Source of the DNA: an uncultured Acetobacteraceae bacterium
GTDB lineage: Bacteria > Pseudomonadota > Alphaproteobacteria > Acetobacterales > Acetobacteraceae
Assembly: GCA_946476985.1 (NCBI GenBank)
Contig: CAMKWS010000001.1
Coordinates: 248,001-312,000 of the forward strand
Direction of reading: 5' to 3'
Length of the DNA stretch: 64,000 bases
The position numbers and the translations under genes are program-made. Position 1 is the first letter of the stretch; each line of letters starts with the position of its first letter. The notes beneath the pieces are model-generated. The model saw only the letters and a program-made list of their open reading frames with translations. It did no database searches and had not been told where the DNA came from. Shown piece after piece: positions 5,702-37,059 of the stretch.

Positions 5702-7017
5702 TACCGCAAACCTAGCTTAGCCAATGCTTCATCTAGCGGCAGCTCACTGCGCTCACCCGTGGCGCGATGTTTTAACTCAACCATGCCATTTTTCGCCCCA
5801 CGAGGGCCAACAATGATCTGCCAAGGATGCCCCAGAAGATCAGCATCATTGAACTTCACCCCCGCCCGCTCGGAACGATCATCATACAGCAGCCCTTCTG
5901 GGTCACAGCTATAAATGCTCTCGCACATCGCATCACAAGTTTCATCACCCGGGCGTAAATTCAACAAAGCGGCACGATAAGGGGCAACATCTTCTGGCCA
6001 AATAATACCAGCATCATCGTGAGACGCTTCAATAATCGCTCCCACCAAACGAGATACACCAATACCATAAGACCCCATATGAGGGTGAATAGCAGCACCA
6101 TCAGCGCCATTCACCTCAACACCCATGGCTTCGGTATATTTCGTACCAAAATAGAAAATATGGCCAACTTCAATACCACGTCCACCACGGCGGCGATCCT
6201 CTGGCACAGCCTCCCACGCTGTAAGATCGTGCTTCTCATCGGTTGCAGAATAGGTCTCTTTCACCAAATTCTGTAACTTCTGGAGATCAGCTTCATTCTG
6301 CGGGTTTAACGCCATGGATTCCCAATCCATCTCGTCCCACCCAGCATCATAAAAAACTTCGCTTTCACCCGTTGGGGCTAACACGAGGAATTCATGGCTC
6401 AACTCACCACCAATTGGCCCAGTATCTGCGGCCATTGGTACAGCCTTCACACCAAGACGGCGGAAGATCTTCAAGTAAGAAAGCATCATCCTATAATAGC
6501 TGCTCACAGCTGCTTCATAGGAAAGGTCGAAGGAATAGGCATCCTTCATATAAAATTCACGCCCACGCATCACACCAAAACGAGGGCGAACTTCGTCACG
6601 GAACTTCCATTGGATATGGTAAATCACCTTCGGCAATTCACGGTATGATTTTACCGTACTGCCAAAGAGGTCTGTCACCACTTCTTCATTCGTTGGACCA
6701 TACAGCATCTCACGGCCTTGACGATCCTGAATACGCAGCATTTCAGGGCCATAAGCATCATAACGACCAGAACGCCGCCATAAATCGGCTGATTGTATGG
6801 TCGGCATTAAGACTTCCTGCCCACCAACTTGGTCCTGCTCTTGGCGCACAATATTCGCAATATTGCGCAACACACGCAGCCCTGCCGGCAACCATGTATA
6901 AATACCTGATGATGTCTGCCGCACCAGTCCTGCACGCAGCATCAGACGGTGTGAGGCGATCTGCGCCTCAGCAGGAACTTCTTTTAAAGTAGGCTGGAAA
7001 GCTTGGCTTAACCGCAT
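5701..7017 (-). CDS. proS: Prolyl-tRNA synthetase (short form without the large editing insertion)
   Basis: 438 aa; [71 protein letters not shown] class II aaRS motif. Confidence 0.95.
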
Positions 7018-7029
7018 GCTCTCTTTTCC

Positions 7030-8700
7030 TCAAACGCGCAGAAGGTGAACATCAACCAAAGGACGCTTGCGCAATTTACGTCCTAATGCACGGCGCAATG
7101 CTGTTCGTGCCGCATCACGGAAAGCCTGATCATCCTGCCGGAACTCATCAGGAATTTCATCAATCGCATACGCAAATTCTTCACGAATACGCGTACTTTC
7201 TGGGTCATCTCTTTCCAACAAGCCTGGCGCACTAATACGTGGATCACCGATGACATAACCTTCATCATCCACAGCAAAACTTGCCAAAACAACGCCGTTA
7301 AACAGCATGCGACGGCGTGCAGCTAACACACCACCTGTCATTGGCAGCAAACGATCACCATCAAGAGCCAAACGCCCTGTTGGAGCTGTATCAACAACCT
7401 CAACCGGCCCTGGGCCTAAATTCAAGATATCACCATCTTCAAGCAGAACAGCTTCAGCACCACTCTCACGCGCCACCGCACCATGCGCCGTCAAATGACG
7501 CCATTCACCATGGGTCGGAATACTGTAGCGAGGACGCACCAAGCTATAGAGATGGCGAATATCCCCCCCTGTAGCGTGCCCCGATGTATGAACCATACCG
7601 TCTTTATCTGTCAGCACTGTGACACCACGGCGTGTAAGGTTATCCTGCACCGTCATTACAGCTTGCTCATTACCCGGAATCACACGGGAGCTGTAGATAA
7701 CCGTATCCCCCTCACCCAGAGAAATGCTGGAATGGGTATCATTTGCGATACGTGACAGAGCCGAGCGTGCTTCACCCTGACTACCTGTGATGATCATCAG
7801 CAAATTATCATCCGAGACATTCGCTGCGTCATATTCTGTCAAAAATGGTGGGAGATCGGTAAAGTAACCACACTCACGTGCAGCCGCCTCTAGGTTACGC
7901 AAAGAGCGGCCAATCACCATCACTTCACGCCCCGTTGCCAAAGCGGCCTTTGCAATGCTCTCCACACGCGCAACGTTACTCGCAAAGCATGTCACCGCAA
8001 CGCGTCCTTCAAGACCAGCGATCATCTCCGTCAAGCCAACGCGCACTTCCGCCTCAGATTGAGATGGTCCCTCGCGCATGACATTGGTGCTATCACCAAC
8101 CATAGCCAGCACACCTTCGTCACCTAAAGCACGGAAGGCATCTTCATCTGTCACTGGGCCCACAAGAGGTGTTGGGTCCAGCTTCCAGTCCCCTGTATGA
8201 ACAACAATCCCATGCGGCGTACGAATCGCAACAGATTGAGCCTCAATAATAGAGTGCGTCACTGGAATGAATTGCAGATCAAATGGCCCAACTTCGAATC
8301 GTGATGCAGGCATCACGATATTCAAGACCACCTGATTTTGCAGCCCAGCTTCGCTGAGCTTGCGACGTATCACAGCTGCTGTAAACGGCGTTGCATAGAC
8401 AGGACAGCGCAGATATTTCCACAAATGTGCAATCGCACCGATATGATCTTCATGCGCGTGGGTAATAACCAAGCCGCACAGCGTGTCCTTCCGCTCTGCA
8501 ATAAAACTTGGGTCGGGCATCAATACATCTGCTTCTGGGGTATCATTCCCAGAAAAACCGATGCCGCAGTCAATCGCCAACCAATGTTCTTCCCCATCTT
8601 TACGCAAGCGATACAAGTTGAGATTCATACCAATCTCACCTGTGCCTCCTAGCGGGAGAAAGGCAAAATCATCCTTCTGTTCTGTCATATAATCATCCAC
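7030..8700 (-). CDS. rnj: Ribonuclease J
   Basis: 556 aa; metallo-beta-lactamase motif THAHEDHIGA, beta-CASP region, PTHGEWRHLTAH. Confidence 0.93.
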   Translation of the reverse strand: MDDYMTEQKDDFAFLPLGGTGEIGMNLNLYRLRKDGEEHWLAIDCGIGFSGNDTPEADVLMPDPSFIAERKDTLCGLVITHAHEDHIGAIAHLWKYLRCPVYATPFTAAVIRRKLSEAGLQNQVVLNIVMPASRFEVGPFDLQFIPVTHSIIEAQSVAIRTPHGIVVHTGDWKLDPTPLVGPVTDEDAFRALGDEGVLAMVGDSTNVMREGPSQSEAEVRVGLTEMIAGLEGRVAVTCFASNVARVESIAKAALATGREVMVIGRSLRNLEAAARECGYFTDLPPFLTEYDAANVSDDNLLMIITGSQGEARSALSRIANDTHSSISLGEGDTVIYSSRVIPGNEQAVMTVQDNLTRRGVTVLTDKDGMVHTSGHATGGDIRHLYSLVRPRYSIPTHGEWRHLTAHGAVARESGAEAVLLEDGDILNLGPGPVEVVDTAPTGRLALDGDRLLPMTGGVLAARRRMLFNGVVLASFAVDDEGYVIGDPRISAPGLLERDDPESTRIREEFAYAIDEIPDEFRQDDQAFRDAARTALRRALGRKLRKRPLVDVHLLRV

Positions 8701-8707
8701 ATCATGT

Positions 8708-9556
8708 TTACGTGTTATCTAAACGCCCAAAGGCATTATGGGCCTGCTGCCCAGAAACATCAGTGACGAAACGCGCACTATTCTGCCCCGCAAGTAAGCG
8801 AAGCCCCTCCAACGTGAGGTCCGGTGCCACTTCATCAAATAACGTCGTCCCCTCTGAAAAGAGAGGCGCTAAACCACCTGTCGCCACAACTTTCGCTGGC
8901 TCATCCATCTCGCCGGCTATCCGGCGTACAATTCCCTCAACAAGGCCGACATACCCCCAAAAGAGCCCCGACCTCATAGCCACACTCGTATTGCGGCCAA
9001 TTGCCTCTACAGGCCGCCCAACACTCACACGCGGCAAACGCGCCGCTGCTTTATGCAGCGCGTCCATCGAAAGATTCACTCCTGGAGCAATTGCTCCACC
9101 ACAATAGCGGCCTTCTCTATCCACAACATCAAACGTCGTAGCCGTTCCAAAATCCACAACAATCAACGGCCCACCATAAAGCCGATGAGACGCTAAGCCA
9201 TTCAATAAGCGGTCCGCCCCTAACTCAGAGGGCGTATCCACCAAAACATCCATTTTCCAGTCCAGCTCATGGTTCGCCACCAACGGCTCAGCATGTAGCC
9301 AGAAACGGCATAAACGCCGCAATTCATACAAGGCTGCTGGCACAACCGTGCCAATAATGGCCCTTTTCACACAGCTTGGGCTCAGTCCGGCTCGTTCCAT
9401 CAAATTCAACAGCCAAACGGCATATTCATCCGCCGTTCTACGATCATCTGTTGAGATGCGCCAGCGCCCTACCCACGCACTGCCATCATGAATGGCAAAA
9501 ACGACATTTGTATTGCCGGCGTCGATAACGAGCAGCACACCTTTTCCTTCACTCAC
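8708..9556 (-). CDS. coaX: Type III pantothenate kinase
   Basis: 282 aa; [43 protein letters not shown]. Confidence 0.95.
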
Positions 9557-29402: not shown

Positions 29403-30659
29403 CTATGGGACGAACCATCCCAGCAGCACTTCGAGTACCGCTCCTACCACAAAGCCAACAACAGTGCCATTCACCCGAATATAAGCAAGGTCCCGCCCAA
29501 TACCGGCCTCTAACTTGGCGGACAAACTTTCCGCATCCCAGCCTTTTATAACACGGGCAATCATATTCTCAGCAGCTTGCTGAATACTCGGGAGCGACTG
29601 TTTAATCGCTTGGCGAATGGTTTGGTCCATTTGATACGCAAACTCTGTACGAGACCCTAACCCCTTCACCACTTGTTGGTACATCGTACTTAACGCCTGT
29701 TGGCTTAACCCATCTTCACGGTAACTATCTTCTTTCACCATTAAGCAGAGGCGCTGCCACAAGCCACTACTCCACACTCTCACACTGTCATGTGAAAAGA
29801 AGACTGCAATACGCTCCATTAATTCTTGAGCGCTCTGTGGATCCTTATCTAGCTGATAAATCTTTTTACGCACCCACTTGGTAAAACCATGTCTCAAATC
29901 AGAATCCATAGGGTCAACACGCCCTAACTCTGCTTTGAGTGCAGTTAAAACCTGTGTTGCAACGGAAGCTCCAATCGCCCAGCCAATTAATCTTCCCCCC
30001 TGCTCCCGCACGCGCTCTTGCACGAACTGATGCAGTTCAACTTCCCGCGTGATGACAAGCTGTTTAAATTGGGCAAGAAAAAACGAAAAAACCTCTTGGT
30101 GAATATCCTCATCCACCATCGCTTTTAGCCCTCGTACTACCAAAAGGGCTACATCCTCGCGCCGCACCAAAACAGGAAAGAGCTGCGCAATAAACGAGCC
30201 CCCTCGTCCATCCCCCAGCCCTTCTACCAGCTCCGGCACAAGTGCGCCTAATTGGTCCAAGATGCGCTTTTCCGTTGCTGGCTTTTGTAAAAGACGCGCA
30301 ATAACAACGGGAAACTCAATACGCTCTAAAAAGCGTGTAACCTCTTCTTCACTTAAAAAATGCTCAGCCATAAAGCGCCCCAGAGCTTGGCCAAGCTGTT
30401 CCTTGCGTCGGGGAAGAATCGCTGTATGCGGTATCGGCAACCCTAATGGCTGGCGGAAGAGAGCCGTCACAGCGAACCAATCTGCCAGCCCACCTACGAC
30501 ACCAGCCTGACTGCCTGCGCGCACCATTTCTAGCCATAACGGCGTACCAAACATGCGCTGCCAAATCGGCAATCGACTTGCCACTGCAAGACCAGATACA
30601 GCGCCAAGTAGAGCTGTAGCCCAAAGAGAAGCTCTATTTTTGGGTCTTATATCAGACAT
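29403..30659 (-). CDS. DUF445 family membrane protein
   Basis: 418 aa; GLADWFAVTALFRQPLGLPIPHTAILPRRKEQLGQALGRFMAEHFLS. Confidence 0.85.
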   Translation of the reverse strand: MSDIRPKNRASLWATALLGAVSGLAVASRLPIWQRMFGTPLWLEMVRAGSQAGVVGGLADWFAVTALFRQPLGLPIPHTAILPRRKEQLGQALGRFMAEHFLSEEEVTRFLERIEFPVVIARLLQKPATEKRILDQLGALVPELVEGLGDGRGGSFIAQLFPVLVRREDVALLVVRGLKAMVDEDIHQEVFSFFLAQFKQLVITREVELHQFVQERVREQGGRLIGWAIGASVATQVLTALKAELGRVDPMDSDLRHGFTKWVRKKIYQLDKDPQSAQELMERIAVFFSHDSVRVWSSGLWQRLCLMVKEDSYREDGLSQQALSTMYQQVVKGLGSRTEFAYQMDQTIRQAIKQSLPSIQQAAENMIARVIKGWDAESLSAKLEAGIGRDLAYIRVNGTVVGFVVGAVLEVLLGWFVP

Positions 30660-30886: not shown

Positions 30887-33679
30887 ATGACAGACTGCGC
30901 CTCCCTGCCTGACGCATCACCTGCCGAGTTGATCAACGCCCTCAACGTGGACCTCACACGTGCGCCTCATGATCTCTCAAGCCTCATTATCTCGCTCGCA
31001 GCCAAAACAGGCTCTGATGCAGGAATGGACACGATTGAAGAAACAGTCCGCCTTCTGCGAGATCGTAACTTCATTACACGTGCAACAGCTTTGCGCCGTT
31101 ACATTGGGCTCGAAAAAGATGGTGCGGAATGTCCACCAGAACCACGCCTCCGCAAAGTAGCTGAACAGCTTGTCGCTCAAGCAAAAACCCCTAAAGCTCT
31201 TTCTACCACTGGCTTTGCGGCTGTCTTTACCGCTCACCCTACCTTTGCGCTGGCAAACGAAGTTTATGAACTCCTCGCCCACCGTGCAGAGGACCCTTCA
31301 CACCCTGTCCCCAAACTGCCGACCCACCGTCGCGCAGCCCCTCCGACATTGGATGAAGAACAAAGTCTTGCACTTGCTGCAATTACACGCGGCCGCGATG
31401 CTCTAGACGCACTTGCGTTAGAAATTTTTCGTGCTGCACGCAAACGCTGGCCAGATGCTAAAAACCTCACACCAGCCCCTATCAAACTTGCAAGCTGGGT
31501 TGGATTTGATACAGACGGCCGTAACGACATTGGCTGGTGGGACACTATCCGTATCCGCCTCGGCCTGAAGGTCGCCCAACTTCAACGCCTACTCGATGGC
31601 TTATATGAGCTAAAGCTTGAAGGCTCCTCTCTTGCAAAACGCACTGCAGAGGCTCTTAAAGCTACACAAGAACAGCATGAGGCATGCCCACGCTCTATCC
31701 CCGGCCAGCAACTTGCTCCTGAGGATATTGCAAGCTTCTCTCATCAGCTCATTAAGCTACGTGATACAGCCCTCCTCCATGCTGAAGAGCTTCTTCCTTT
31801 CTTTGAAGAAACAGCTGCCTCTCTCGCTCCGGAACAGGCTGAGAAGCTGGATGTCATCCGTAGTGGGTTCCTTAATCATGGGTTGGGCATTTCTCACATC
31901 CACACACGGCTAAATGCGGCACAAATTTACAATGTCGCCCGTACACGTCTTGGCCTGACAGATGATCCAACCCTCCCCTTCCACCGTCATGCGCTCCTCA
32001 GCCGCATTGATGCCGCGATGGATGATCTCTCTCCATTAGCGATAGATTTTGGCGCACTGCTGATCGAGCCTAGCGCTGCTGCCCGTCTGATGATGACGAT
32101 GGCGCAGATCCTCAAACATATCGATTCCGGCTCCCCTATCCGTTTCCTTATTGCAGAAACAGAAAGTGGCTACACGCTGCTCGCCACTCTGTGGTTGGCA
32201 CGCTTATTTGGAATTAAGGATAGCCAAATTGAAATCTCTCCACTTTTTGAGACAGAAAGTGCGCTCGAAAATGGTGAGACAATTCTGGAAGAAGCCTTCC
32301 GCTCACCTCATTGGCGCTCTTACCTCCGTGCCAATGGGCGGCTATCCCTCCAATTTGGGTACTCCGACTCTGGCCGTTATGTGGGGCAACTTGCCGCAGG
32401 GCCCATGGTTGAAAGACTACGCCTGCGTACATTAGAGCTTATGAAAGAACATGGGCTGGATGATATTGCCCTCACTATGTTCGACACACACGGCGAAAGC
32501 ATCGGCCGTGGGGCTCACCCTTTCAGCCTAAAAGAACGTCTCAGCTACTTCTCACCGGCCAACACACGCCAAGCCCTGCGTAATGCAAAAATTACCAGCC
32601 GTGTTGAAGCTGCCTTCCAAGGGGGAGATGGCTACCTTCCTTTTGGCACCGATAAATTAGCCGCATCCACCATCGCAACCCTTGCTGAATTCGTTGCAGC
32701 TCAAGATGAACCCATCACAGAAGCCGAGCTAAAAGATCCGCTCTTTAGCAAACCCGACTTCGCAATGGACTTCTTCTCCACGATCGCCTTGAAGATGGGC
32801 GATCTTGTAAATGATCCCGGCTATACGGCTCTGCTGAGTGCTTTTGGCCCTGCTTTAATCGATAAAACAGGCTCACGCCCTTCTGCTCGGCAATCCGACA
32901 CCGCACGGGTGACACGCATCACCCATCCAAGCCAGATCCGCGCTATTCCCAATAATGCGATCCTTCAGCAGCTTGGTTGGTGGGCCAATGTGTTGCATGG
33001 CCTTGGTGGGGCAGCACGTCGCCACACAGAAAATTTTGAGCGCCTGCGCCATAGTTCACCACGCTTCCGCCAGCTTATGGACTTTGCTTCTCAGGCTCTC
33101 GCTCATTCTGACCTGAGCGTCCTCCGGGCAACAATTCACCAACTAGACCCCGGCACATGGCTTAACCGTGCTGCAGAATGTGACGATGCCGACCAGCGTG
33201 TGCATTTCCTCAGCATCGCACGAGACCTTGAGGAGCTTGAATTCTGGAAGAGTGTTCCAGCTCTCTTCCGCCGTATTCAACGTGAAGATATCGCACTACG
33301 TTCTGCTTGGCCAAAAGCCCCTCGCATGGAAACGGAAGAGAAGCTTCTTCATGTCATTCGTTTTGCCTTGATGGAACGCCTCTGGACCCTAGGTACATTA
33401 ATTCCGTATTTCGGCCCACGAGGAAGCCTCACGCGAGAATCAATCAATACACTTATTCTCTGCTTGGATATTCCCCGTGCTCTGCGTTTGCTAGATGACC
33501 TCTTCCCTATCACCACACCAAGCATTGCCGACCTCGACTTCGGTGAACCAGGTGGGGCTGGTGCCGCGCAGGGTTTTGCTCGCGAGCATCAAGAAATCTT
33601 CAAGCCTATGCAGCGCACTTTTGACCTCCTCCGTGAGGTCGGTATAGCCATTATGCACGCTAACCACTGCTTCGGCTAA
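30887..33679 (+). CDS. Phosphoenolpyruvate carboxylase-like protein with altered catalytic motifs
   Basis: 930 aa; full-length Ppc-like order of motifs (FTAHPTF, SWVGFDTDGRND, SPLFETESAL, GYSDSGRYVG, FDTHGESIGRGAHP, IRAIPNNAILQQLGWWANVLHGLGGA), but several invariant residues are substituted. Confidence 0.85.
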   Translation: MTDCASLPDASPAELINALNVDLTRAPHDLSSLIISLAAKTGSDAGMDTIEETVRLLRDRNFITRATALRRYIGLEKDGAECPPEPRLRKVAEQLVAQAKTPKALSTTGFAAVFTAHPTFALANEVYELLAHRAEDPSHPVPKLPTHRRAAPPTLDEEQSLALAAITRGRDALDALALEIFRAARKRWPDAKNLTPAPIKLASWVGFDTDGRNDIGWWDTIRIRLGLKVAQLQRLLDGLYELKLEGSSLAKRTAEALKATQEQHEACPRSIPGQQLAPEDIASFSHQLIKLRDTALLHAEELLPFFEETAASLAPEQAEKLDVIRSGFLNHGLGISHIHTRLNAAQIYNVARTRLGLTDDPTLPFHRHALLSRIDAAMDDLSPLAIDFGALLIEPSAAARLMMTMAQILKHIDSGSPIRFLIAETESGYTLLATLWLARLFGIKDSQIEISPLFETESALENGETILEEAFRSPHWRSYLRANGRLSLQFGYSDSGRYVGQLAAGPMVERLRLRTLELMKEHGLDDIALTMFDTHGESIGRGAHPFSLKERLSYFSPANTRQALRNAKITSRVEAAFQGGDGYLPFGTDKLAASTIATLAEFVAAQDEPITEAELKDPLFSKPDFAMDFFSTIALKMGDLVNDPGYTALLSAFGPALIDKTGSRPSARQSDTARVTRITHPSQIRAIPNNAILQQLGWWANVLHGLGGAARRHTENFERLRHSSPRFRQLMDFASQALAHSDLSVLRATIHQLDPGTWLNRAAECDDADQRVHFLSIARDLEELEFWKSVPALFRRIQREDIALRSAWPKAPRMETEEKLLHVIRFALMERLWTLGTLIPYFGPRGSLTRESINTLILCLDIPRALRLLDDLFPITTPSIADLDFGEPGGAGAAQGFAREHQEIFKPMQRTFDLLREVGIAIMHANHCFG

Positions 33680-33704: not shown

Positions 33705-33750
33705 ATAGCCCCCTCTCTCCATAAAAAGAGAAAGGGGGCTATTTTTATTC
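33705..33750 (+). terminator. Intrinsic terminator after the PEPC-like gene
   Basis: atagccccct...agggggctat followed by ttttta. Confidence 0.75.
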
Positions 33751-33798: not shown

Positions 33799-35430
33799 TT
33801 GTCTATGCTGTCCAAACTTCTTGCCCTCGGCACAACTCTTACGGGAATCACATTTTCTCACCTTCCCGCACACGCAACGACTACCGCTCCCGTTGCCTCC
33901 CTCACAGCCCCAGCTGATAGTGTCAGCACAGGGACCCTCAAACTGGGTAAACAACTTATCCCCTATCATACCGTTGCAGGGACATTGCTTATCCACGGGC
34001 AGCATTATGATGATTCACATGATGTCCTAAAACAACGCCACGAACTTCCCGAAAGCACAGGGGAACATAAAGACGACAGCACCACAAAAGCACCGCCTGT
34101 CGCCTCTATGTTCTACACGGCTTATTTCCGTGACGTAGCCGCCACAGAGAAACGCCCTATCATCTTTTTTTATAATGGCGGGCCCGGCTCTGCGAGCGTA
34201 TGGCTTCATATGGGCTCTTTCGGCCCTCTCCGCGTTTCAACACCCGGTGATACGCATCTCCCAGCACCACCCTATAGCCTCATCAATAACCAGCAATCTC
34301 TCTTAGATATTGCCGATCTCGTCTTTATCGATGCCCCCGGCACAGGCTTTTCCCGCATTAATGGGACAGACGCCCAAAAAGAATTTTACAGCTTAGATGG
34401 CGATGCTGCAGCATTTACGCATTTCATTACACAATTCCTAGCACGCTATCACCGTTTCAATTCCCCTCGCTATCTTTTTGGAGAAAGCTACGGCACCCTA
34501 CGCTCTGCTGTTGTGGCGAATAAACTTGCCCAAGATGAAAGCCTCGACCTCAACGGCATCATCCTCCTTTCCCAAATTCTCAGCTACGATAACGACCCGG
34601 ATGGCGTAACACTTCACCCAGGGATGGACCTTCCCTATGTTCTAGCTCTGCCAACCTACGCTGCAACCGCTTGGTATCATCATAGCCTGCCAAAGCAGCC
34701 CAAAGAGCTCAAAACCTTCCTCAAAGAGGTCGAACATTTCGCCAGCACTGATTATCTCCTCGCTCTTCAACAAGGCAGTGATTTATCAGATGCAGATAAG
34801 CAAAAAATTGCTGAAACTCTGCACCGTTATACAGGCATCTCCACCTCTTATATTCTTCGTGCCAACCTACGGCTTTCTGGCGGTATGTTTGAGCATGAAT
34901 TGCTGCAAGATCGTGGCCTTACAACAGGGCGGTTAGACACACGCTATAGCTCCCCCAGCATCGACCCACTGGGCAAAGAGCCACTTTATGATGCACAATC
35001 CAGCGCACTCAGCTCTGCCTATCTCTCTCTCTTTAATGACTATATTCGCCGTGACCTTCACTACGGTGCAGAGACCCCGTATCTCTCCATTAGCTATGAT
35101 GCAAATAACAACTGGGATACACACCACGACATCCCACTACCAGGTGGTCAACACGCCAGCACAACGCCTAATGTCATGCCAGATCTCGCTATGGCCCTTA
35201 AAACTAACCCTAACCTAAAAGTTATGCTAAATGGCGGGTATTACGATATGGCGACCCCATATTACCAAGGTGTCTATGAAATGAAGCACCTGCCTATCCC
35301 CGCGTCCTTGCAAAAGAATATCTCTTTTTACCAATACCCTGTTGGGCACATGGTCTATGTCGATCAACAAACCCTACAGCAACTGCATGACAATGTTGCA
35401 GCTTTCATCCAGAACTCTGTCTCTCACTAA
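33799..35430 (+). CDS. S10 family serine carboxypeptidase-like protein, predicted exported
   Basis: 543 aa; N-terminal signal-like segment (...LLALGTTLTGITFSHLPAHA), FFYNGGPGSASVWLHMGSFGPLRV, FGESYGTLRSA nucleophile motif. Confidence 0.9.
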   Translation: MSMLSKLLALGTTLTGITFSHLPAHATTTAPVASLTAPADSVSTGTLKLGKQLIPYHTVAGTLLIHGQHYDDSHDVLKQRHELPESTGEHKDDSTTKAPPVASMFYTAYFRDVAATEKRPIIFFYNGGPGSASVWLHMGSFGPLRVSTPGDTHLPAPPYSLINNQQSLLDIADLVFIDAPGTGFSRINGTDAQKEFYSLDGDAAAFTHFITQFLARYHRFNSPRYLFGESYGTLRSAVVANKLAQDESLDLNGIILLSQILSYDNDPDGVTLHPGMDLPYVLALPTYAATAWYHHSLPKQPKELKTFLKEVEHFASTDYLLALQQGSDLSDADKQKIAETLHRYTGISTSYILRANLRLSGGMFEHELLQDRGLTTGRLDTRYSSPSIDPLGKEPLYDAQSSALSSAYLSLFNDYIRRDLHYGAETPYLSISYDANNNWDTHHDIPLPGGQHASTTPNVMPDLAMALKTNPNLKVMLNGGYYDMATPYYQGVYEMKHLPIPASLQKNISFYQYPVGHMVYVDQQTLQQLHDNVAAFIQNSVSH

Positions 35431-35545: not shown

Positions 35546-36874
35546 TTACAGCTTACACATTCCCTCACGTGCGCGCCGCAACAACACACCTGGTTTAAAA
35601 CCAGCGTGCCAGATTTTAGGAATAGCTACCCGCTGGGATAGATAAATCCCTGTATGTCCGGATGCCAAATAGGCCACAAAGCAGCCCGTTGCATAATAGA
35701 CGATATTCACACCACCAAATAACTCAACAGCCATAATCGTACAGGCCAACGGGGTATTCGCCGCCCCTGCAAACACCGCAACGAAACCAACGCCTGCAAG
35801 AAGATCCACTGGCACATCCAACTCTGGGGCCAGCGCATTACCCAACCCAGCTCCTATGAAGAACAGAGGGGTAACCTCTCCCCCTTTAAAACCAGTAGAG
35901 AGCGCAAGCACCGTAAAGAGCAATTTAAGCAACCAGCTCCATTCATAATGTGTTGTAGAGAAGAAATTCACAATGGAGGCTCCGCCCACATCAGGAGCGG
36001 TCACACCGAGGCCCAGATAATCTCTCGTGCCAAAAACAAACACCAACAAAATAGTCACGACACCGCCAATAGCGGGTCTTAACCATGGCTGCGGGCAAAA
36101 TTTCTTCACAATTGGTGAAAGCCTATGCACACCCTCGGCAAAGGCACGGCTAGCTAAGCCAAAGGCGATAGAAGCAACAATGACCTTAAGCCACAAAATA
36201 GCATCTACATGAAACGCCGTACCATCTGGCCCCAGTACCCCTTGAAAGCCCACATGATATGCTGCGTGGTGAATACCCCATTGATGACATCCCCAATCCG
36301 CCACAATAGAGGCCACCGCCACCGGCAATAATGCTGCGTAATCCAACGCACCTAATGTAACGACTTCTAGCCCAAATATCGCCCCAGCAATGGGGGTACC
36401 AAACACGGCCCCAAACCCCGCTGCAATACCCGCCATGAGTAGAATACGGGTACTACGTGCATCTAAACGGAAGAGCCGAGCAAACCCAGCTGCAACACTA
36501 CCGCCCATTTGCACAGCAGTACCTTCCCGTCCTACAGAGGCCCCAAATAAATGGCTTATGACCGTTCCTGCAAAAACAAGAGGCGCCATCCGTAACGGCA
36601 CGCCCCCCCCAGGTTGGTGAATCTCATCAATGATAAGATTATTCCCCCCTTCAGAGCGGCCCCCCCACCAGAAATATGACAGCGCCACCGCCATACCCGC
36701 CAGAGGCAGAGCATATAAAATAGCAGGATGGGTTATCCTATAATCGGTAACCTCTTCTAACAGCCACAGAAACAATGCACAGAAGCTTCCCACAATGAGA
36801 GCCATCGGCACAAGTACGCAGCACCAGCGTAAAAATCTCATCAACACATAACCAGATTGTTTTTGTAAAAACAT
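35546..36874 (-). CDS. CLC-type transporter, predicted CLC-F fluoride/proton antiporter
   Basis: Start placed at ATG 36874 (preceded by GGGAGGAG), not the 36922 ORF start. GGNNLIIDEIH in place of the usual GSGIP, GASVGREGTAVQMGG, GFKGGEVTPLFFIGAGLGNAL; downstream of a fluoride riboswitch. Confidence 0.88.
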   Translation of the reverse strand: MFLQKQSGYVLMRFLRWCCVLVPMALIVGSFCALFLWLLEEVTDYRITHPAILYALPLAGMAVALSYFWWGGRSEGGNNLIIDEIHQPGGGVPLRMAPLVFAGTVISHLFGASVGREGTAVQMGGSVAAGFARLFRLDARSTRILLMAGIAAGFGAVFGTPIAGAIFGLEVVTLGALDYAALLPVAVASIVADWGCHQWGIHHAAYHVGFQGVLGPDGTAFHVDAILWLKVIVASIAFGLASRAFAEGVHRLSPIVKKFCPQPWLRPAIGGVVTILLVFVFGTRDYLGLGVTAPDVGGASIVNFFSTTHYEWSWLLKLLFTVLALSTGFKGGEVTPLFFIGAGLGNALAPELDVPVDLLAGVGFVAVFAGAANTPLACTIMAVELFGGVNIVYYATGCFVAYLASGHTGIYLSQRVAIPKIWHAGFKPGVLLRRAREGMCKL

Positions 36875-36923
36875 AAACAGACTCCTCCCGCACCCTTCAC
36901 CTACTTTAGGTGAAAGCATCATT

Positions 36924-36996
36924 GGCAGGAATCATCAGCCTTCCCTCATATGGGTGGCGGTTTGGCCATAAAAGGCCCGGTGGTAATCCATCACCG
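36924..36996 (-). ncRNA. Fluoride riboswitch (crcB motif) aptamer
   Basis: Reverse strand GGTGATGGATTACCACC-GGGCCTTTTATGGCC-AAACCGCCACCCATATGAGGGAAGGCTGATGATTCCTGCC matches the crcB consensus elements (GGnGAUGG..UUnCC, AACCGCC, GGCUGAUG, UCCU). Confidence 0.88.
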
Positions 36997-37059
36997 TTAC
37001 AAGCAAGATAGCATTAATCTTATAAAGACTGTCAAGCAATACAGCCCAACACCCACAAA

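Follow-up and report, generated by a model that had tools for sequence, protein, structure and literature searches.

A divergent PEP carboxylase homologue with a remodelled active site in acetic acid bacteria

Introduction

PEP carboxylase (PEPC) is a textbook enzyme of carbon metabolism. In canonical Ppc the arginines of the PEP phosphate site are Arg396, Arg581 and Arg713; in E. coli, Arg581, Lys546 and His579 are considered contacts of the PEP phosphate or of bicarbonate, and all three are regarded as belonging to the conserved active site of PEPC. A review names four main PEPC types, the type presented here not being described there, and gives for the archaeal-type enzyme a size of about 55-60 kDa and the lack of the classical allosteric site (PMC8100219). 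Methylosinus carries two PEPCs (PMC3615186). Gluconacetobacter xylinus has a measured PEPC activity (PMC4047042), and Asp and malate inhibit an Acetobacter PEPC that is sold commercially (PMC5259782); neither enzyme could be linked by sequence to the protein studied here. The ppc gene of Gluconobacter oxydans is GOX0102, with low expression (PMC6191907), and in A. pasteurianus 386B the annotation treats the PEPC gene as a pseudogene with a frameshift (PMC6915089). Our literature search found no discussion of the clade described below, no assayed purified member of it and no assay of GOX0102.

Results

The divPpc gene and its product

The window, i.e. the whole stretch of 64,000 nucleotides that was analysed, contains an open frame of 930 aa encoding a PEPC homologue, named here divPpc. 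The gene and its borders are as follows:

29403..30659, minus strand: DUF445 protein, divergently oriented neighbour of divPpc, conserved in acetic acid bacteria
30887..33679, plus strand: divPpc gene, from the open frame, the Pfam match and the alignments
33707..33746, plus strand: inverted repeat AGCCCCCTCTCT...AGAAAGGGGGCT followed by T5, read directly from the sequence

The host is a Bombella-like acetic acid bacterium with a genome of 1.88 Mb, and the best named protein relatives are from Bombella species (83-85% identity), followed by those of Saccharibacter, Gluconobacter, Neokomagataea and Asaia. A single Pfam family, PEPcase PF00311, was matched by divPpc, with 74.6 bits (E=5.8e-21) against a gathering threshold of 22.4 bits, a match far beyond chance. 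The NCBIfam ppc equivalog NF000584 gave 79.3 bits, which is under its curated cut-off of 815, and the amino acid identity with E. coli Ppc is about 24%. When the profile of 26 relatives was compared with that of 13 canonical PEPCs, residues 82-753 aligned with E=1.1e-23, while the last approximately 175 residues (~754-930) gave no alignment with the canonical C-terminal regulatory part. The initial annotation had proposed an end-to-end alignment with Ppc, which thus holds for residues 82-753 but not for the C-terminus; its by-eye pairing of HTRLNA with the canonical DIRQES is the one obtained in the profile-profile alignment.

Among Bombella orthologues dN/dS is about 0.04-0.06, part of the dS values being saturated. 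The divPpc clade is an old constrained subfamily under strong purifying selection and not a decaying copy. The repeat at 33707-33746 is absent from the list of a simple terminator scan, its loop being too long for that scan. It is likely the intrinsic terminator of divPpc, which suggests that the gene forms a single-gene unit.

An AlphaFold model (window-related sequences) presented a mean pLDDT of 83 and a pTM of 0.88, with low confidence at the loops 537-543 and 658-689, both of them active-site loops. Its best 50 matches in the PDB were all PEPCs, E. coli 1jqn among them, with moderate TM-scores of about 0.55-0.61, and the predicted fold is that of PEPC.

Active-site residues

The residues were surveyed in an alignment of 131 non-redundant divPpc sequences and 25 canonical PEPCs, in E. 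coli numbering. In the window protein the motifs lie at:

31229..31246, plus strand: TAHPTF; His117 equals E. coli His138 (kept), Phe120 equals Glu141 (changed, fixed in the clade)
31493..31528, plus strand: SWVGFDTDGRND, counterpart of SWMGGDRDGNP
31895..31918, plus strand: HIHTRLNA; Arg341 equals E. coli Arg396 (kept)
32240..32254, plus strand: PLFET; Glu455 equals the metal ligand Glu506 (kept)
32357..32386, plus strand: GYSDSGRYVG; Asp494 equals the metal ligand Asp543 (kept), Arg497 equals Lys546 (changed)
32480..32527, plus strand: FDTHGESIGRGAHPFS; Asp533/His535/Glu537 stand for His579/Arg581/Gly583, Arg541 equals Arg587 (kept)
32870..32959, plus strand: GSRPSARQ ... RAIPNNA; Arg664/Arg668/Arg685 equal Arg699/Arg703/Arg713 (kept)
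33665-33676, plus strand: HCFG, C-terminal motif, position located in the sequence

All the motif changes named in the initial annotation are present at these positions, and its coordinates were essentially correct, except that the FDTHGESIGRGAHPFS stretch had been given as 32479-32520. His138, Arg396, Glu506, Asp543, Arg587, Arg699, Arg703 and Arg713 are common to the 131 divPpc and the 25 canonical sequences, with few gapped rows, and the catalytic His138 and Arg587 and the metal ligands Glu506 and Asp543 are invariant in the 131 divPpc sequences wherever the position is covered. The persistence of the TAHP histidine and of the metal ligands, noticed before in the window protein, extends to the whole set of relatives.

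The changed positions are also fixed or nearly so. Glu141 is Phe in 128/131 sequences, the remaining 3 being gapped; Lys546 is Arg and Arg581 is His in 131/131; Gly583 is Glu in 130/131; and His579 is replaced by Asp in 125, by Asn in 5 and by Ser in 1. The first conserved arginine of the loop (Arg581) had been reported as replaced, and it is indeed a histidine, but the second (Arg587) is retained together with Arg396, Arg699, Arg703 and Arg713. The PEP phosphate site thus keeps Arg396 and Arg713 and loses Arg581, and does not present the full canonical set of arginines. The same residue pattern is found in the plasmid members of Phyllobacterium, Sphingobium, Burkholderia and Methylobacterium (n=4), with Asn at position 579 in 2/4. 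The conversion of the glycine-rich loop HGRGG into DTHGE suggests, at the level of sequence, coordinated changes of one unit more than drift. divPpc shows no conservation of the inhibitor-site residues Lys773, Arg832 and Asn881, which lie in a C-terminal part where the alignment is weak.

In the Flaveria enzyme, replacement of the bicarbonate-site Lys600 by Arg is reported to raise the Km for PEP and for bicarbonate (PMC6363079), so that this variant was still measurable. We take Lys600 as the equivalent of E. coli Lys546.

Distribution and phylogeny

The initial annotation had called the gene a paralogue and proposed to look for a second canonical ppc. The PF00311 search of the host genome returned one match, divPpc itself, and each of 14 genomes reached via named loci, including Gluconobacter oxydans NBRC 14819, Asaia siamensis, Saccharibacter floricola and Bombella intestini, has exactly one PF00311 gene, always of the divergent type, which argues against a paralogue. 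Pyruvate carboxylase (PF02436) and ATP-PEPCK (PF01293) were not found in the host genome; malic enzyme is present.

With a profile of the 26 relatives, divPpc was detected in 222/300 Acetobacteraceae genomes, a few of the matches being weak or partial, and in 51/289 genomes of the Alphaproteobacteria; the class-wide profile matches 52/289, of which G473 was left out as its match is its canonical PEPC. Tree building separated the divergent sequences from 25 canonical PEPCs by a fully supported and very long branch, of about 8.8 changes per column. Judged by its sequences, the divPpc clade is ancient and distinct, a sister subfamily of bacterial PEPC.

Co-occurrence with other anaplerotic enzymes

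In the 289 class genomes, divPpc is present in 51, regulated-type PEPC in 28, pyruvate carboxylase in 51 and SRGG-type PEPC in 4 (G542, G484, G582 and G434, assigned by score and profile range alone). Co-occurrence of divPpc with regulated-type PEPC was observed in 0/289 genomes for 4.9 expected (one-sided p=0.003) and with pyruvate carboxylase in 1/289 for 9.0 expected (p=2.5e-4), p-values which ignore shared ancestry. None of divPpc, canonical PEPC or pyruvate carboxylase is present in 160/289 genomes, so that other routes, or absence, are common. Six families hold both PEPC types in different species and in 5/6 of them the two are never in one genome; the sole class-sample genome with both types is G542, where the score of the other PEPC resembles that of the SRGG type.

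In the same way, among the 300 Acetobacteraceae the 7 genomes with a full-length regulated-type PEPC all lack divPpc, as does G313, which has a partial canonical PEPC. This exclusion pattern is what interchangeable enzymes give. Five Acetobacteraceae genomes (G133, G189, G231, G082 and G209) have both divPpc and an SRGG-type PEPC. The SRGG-type sequences of these five genomes end in GFGTTG and resemble serine-cycle enzymes.

Gene neighbourhoods

The synteny of the suf-DUF445 block around divPpc is conserved across acetic acid bacteria. We considered whether the operon logic of the window (SUF operon, DUF445, S10 peptidase, CLC channel) speaks for a function, and set it aside as conserved by descent and uninformative in this respect. 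The serine carboxypeptidase (S10) gene at 33799-35430 (plus strand) follows divPpc, likewise in Gluconobacter and Neokomagataea, and is missing at that place in all the compared Bombella relatives. A fluoride riboswitch (Rfam RF01734, 39.2 bits) at 36919-37004 (minus strand) lies directly upstream of a CLC-family channel gene at 35546-36922 (minus strand), which suggests that the latter encodes a predicted fluoride-exporting CLC.

On the Sphingobium plasmid AP027342.1 (2079-9454) the order is 2-hydroxyacid dehydrogenase, APH-like kinase, enolase, FAH-family protein and divPpc, the last one, annotated as hypothetical, lying directly downstream in a compact cluster. As enolase makes PEP, this cluster points to PEP as the substrate of divPpc, and it is possibly an undescribed glycerate-to-C4 route. 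On the 848 kb plasmid NZ_CP150851.1 of Burkholderia pyrrocinia, divPpc lies beside genes for D-glycerate dehydrogenase, an RraA-family protein and 5-oxoprolinase; this is also a second case outside the Alphaproteobacteria. On a Phyllobacterium plasmid divPpc is found directly behind sucC/sucD-like genes, with the same order in genome G335. The pair resembles a serine-cycle malate thiokinase, a reading not taken as evidence here, the SucD-like protein being 64% identical to E. coli SucD; by sequence, the pair may equally be a plain succinyl-CoA ligase. Most of the wider class divPpc neighbourhoods showed no conserved partner.

Apparent transfer to Neisseriaceae

The bee-gut "Neisseriaceae bacterium ESL0693" carries at 6001-8784 of its locus a divPpc that is 66% identical to the window protein. 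No other PF00311 gene is present in this genome. In the tree the ESL0693 protein is sister, with full support, to the divPpc of ESL0709, an Acetobacteraceae isolate. In the group of ESL0693 canonical PEPC is present in 66/83 genomes, and 16 have neither type. The locus does not show the suf-DUF445 neighbourhood of acetic acid bacteria. One neighbour shares 79% identity with a gene located close to ppc in a different Neisseriaceae genome, in agreement with a true Neisseriaceae contig. By these data ESL0693 apparently acquired its divPpc by horizontal transfer, with an acetic acid bacterium as the donor. That the transferred gene is found where canonical PEPC is absent agrees with a functional replacement; ppc could also have been lost earlier. 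Replacement in place was considered and rejected, as the divPpc locus differs from that of canonical ppc, although the genes near canonical ppc in relatives sit about 8-10 kb from the ESL0693 divPpc. In ESL0693 divPpc adjoins a gene of the AAA/OLD-like kind whose G+C is low (0.33).

Discussion

Proposed function and alternatives

We favour, with a probability of about 0.68, that divPpc is an alternative, probably active PEPC subfamily occupying the anaplerotic niche. The protein would catalyse PEP + HCO3- -> oxaloacetate + Pi. In favour are the kept catalytic and metal residues, the purifying selection, the structural matches to PEPCs, the exclusion pattern, the sole copy in ESL0693, the enolase and dehydrogenase neighbours, and a host genome in which pyruvate carboxylase and ATP-PEPCK were not found; the activity measured in G. 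xylinus (PMC4047042) also speaks for it. Following the known PEPC mechanism, Glu455 and Asp494 would bind Mg/Mn, Arg341 and Arg685 would bind the PEP phosphate, His117, Arg541 and Arg664 would serve the bicarbonate/carboxyphosphate step, and the Asp533-x-His535-x-Glu537 segment together with Arg497 may take over the work of canonical His579, Arg581 and Lys546. As the classical Asp/malate inhibitor site is missing, control must differ.

Several observations speak against this assignment. Arg581, Lys546 and His579 are all changed and the NF000584 equivalog is missed by far. The inhibition of Acetobacter PEPC by Asp and malate (PMC5259782) is not predicted by the loss of the inhibitor site, unless that enzyme is of another type or is inhibited elsewhere. 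The malic enzyme of the host and the low expression of ppc in G. oxydans (PMC6191907) also count against it.

The principal alternative, to which we give a clearly smaller but real share, is the repurposing proposed in the initial annotation, in which PEP and metal would still be bound and a different reaction catalysed, for instance PEP hydrolysis that depends on bicarbonate, a carboxylation or transfer with some other acceptor, or use of a related phospho-enol substrate. Five active-site positions fixed in the clade to other residues, three of them within one loop, and the length of the branch to canonical PEPC are in line with such a change, as are the few genomes where divPpc and SRGG-type PEPC co-occur (five genomes of the family sample and G542 of the class sample) and the plasmid copies with RraA-family, FAH-family and sucCD-like genes. 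However, every other catalytic residue is kept, two PEPC types are also found together in Methylosinus (PMC3615186), and the enolase and D-glycerate dehydrogenase neighbours fit PEP-to-C4 chemistry. The near-total exclusion with regulated-type PEPC and pyruvate carboxylase is a prediction of functional equivalence, and together with the neighbours in other genomes it favours the same PEP-to-oxaloacetate reaction. In its strict form, that the clade is no PEPC at all and that the fixed Asp/Glu/His/Arg replacements make it an enzyme that uses PEP but has another acceptor or product, this alternative is unlikely. Were it true, a reaction not yet described would take the place of the PEPC that is now assumed in many acetic acid bacteria.

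A catalytically dead regulatory paralogue, in line with the regulatory alternative of the initial annotation, would account for the altered active-site loop and for an inhibitor site that is not conserved. We regard it as very improbable, since the genome has no canonical Ppc left to regulate and since a dead scaffold would not keep the metal ligands, the catalytic histidine and the arginines throughout the 131 sequences. A pseudogene or sequencing artefact, for which the window offers no support and of which the only hint is the frameshift annotation in A. pasteurianus 386B (PMC6915089), can be dismissed, as it had been at the outset, on a frame that is intact both here and in the relatives, a dN/dS of about 0.05, the substitutions fixed in 131 relatives and the conserved suf-DUF445 synteny.

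As an apparent stand-in for PEPC and pyruvate carboxylase, the divPpc clade is a natural experiment on which residues the chemistry needs. It bears on the metabolic models of industrial acetic acid bacteria and bee symbionts, in which divPpc appears to be entered as a standard PEPC solely on the strength of its name, and may provide a PEPC without Asp/malate feedback.

Comparison with known PEPCs

The regulated-type bacterial PEPC (E. coli Ppc, EC 4.1.1.31; PF00311) has fold and motif order in common with divPpc, which keeps His138, Arg396, Arg587, Arg699, Arg703, Arg713, Glu506 and Asp543 and differs by E141F, K546R, H579D (nearly always), R581H and G583E. The Ppc1-type unregulated serine-cycle PEPC of Methylosinus (PMC3615186) is of the same family and also lacks parts of the Asp/malate site. 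We infer that the SRGG-type sequences are of this Ppc1-like kind; unlike divPpc, they keep Lys546, His579, Arg581 and Gly583 (L094-L098) and group in the tree with the canonical sequences. The archaeal-type PEPC is, like divPpc, without the classical inhibitor-binding residues, but it has about 500 aa, whereas divPpc has 930 aa and PF00311 as its sole Pfam match, and does not belong to that type.

GOX0102 of Gluconobacter oxydans 621H, annotated ppc, is very probably the divPpc orthologue, because divPpc is the sole PF00311 gene in G. oxydans NBRC 14819; the name of GOX0102 presumably rests on similarity. The description of a PEPC-like 930-aa protein with a remodelled active site, from which this study started, is supported by the PF00311 match and by the fixation of the substitutions in the 131 relatives. 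Proteins of the divPpc type are already called PEPC in some annotation, and the fixed remodelling of their active site is the new part.
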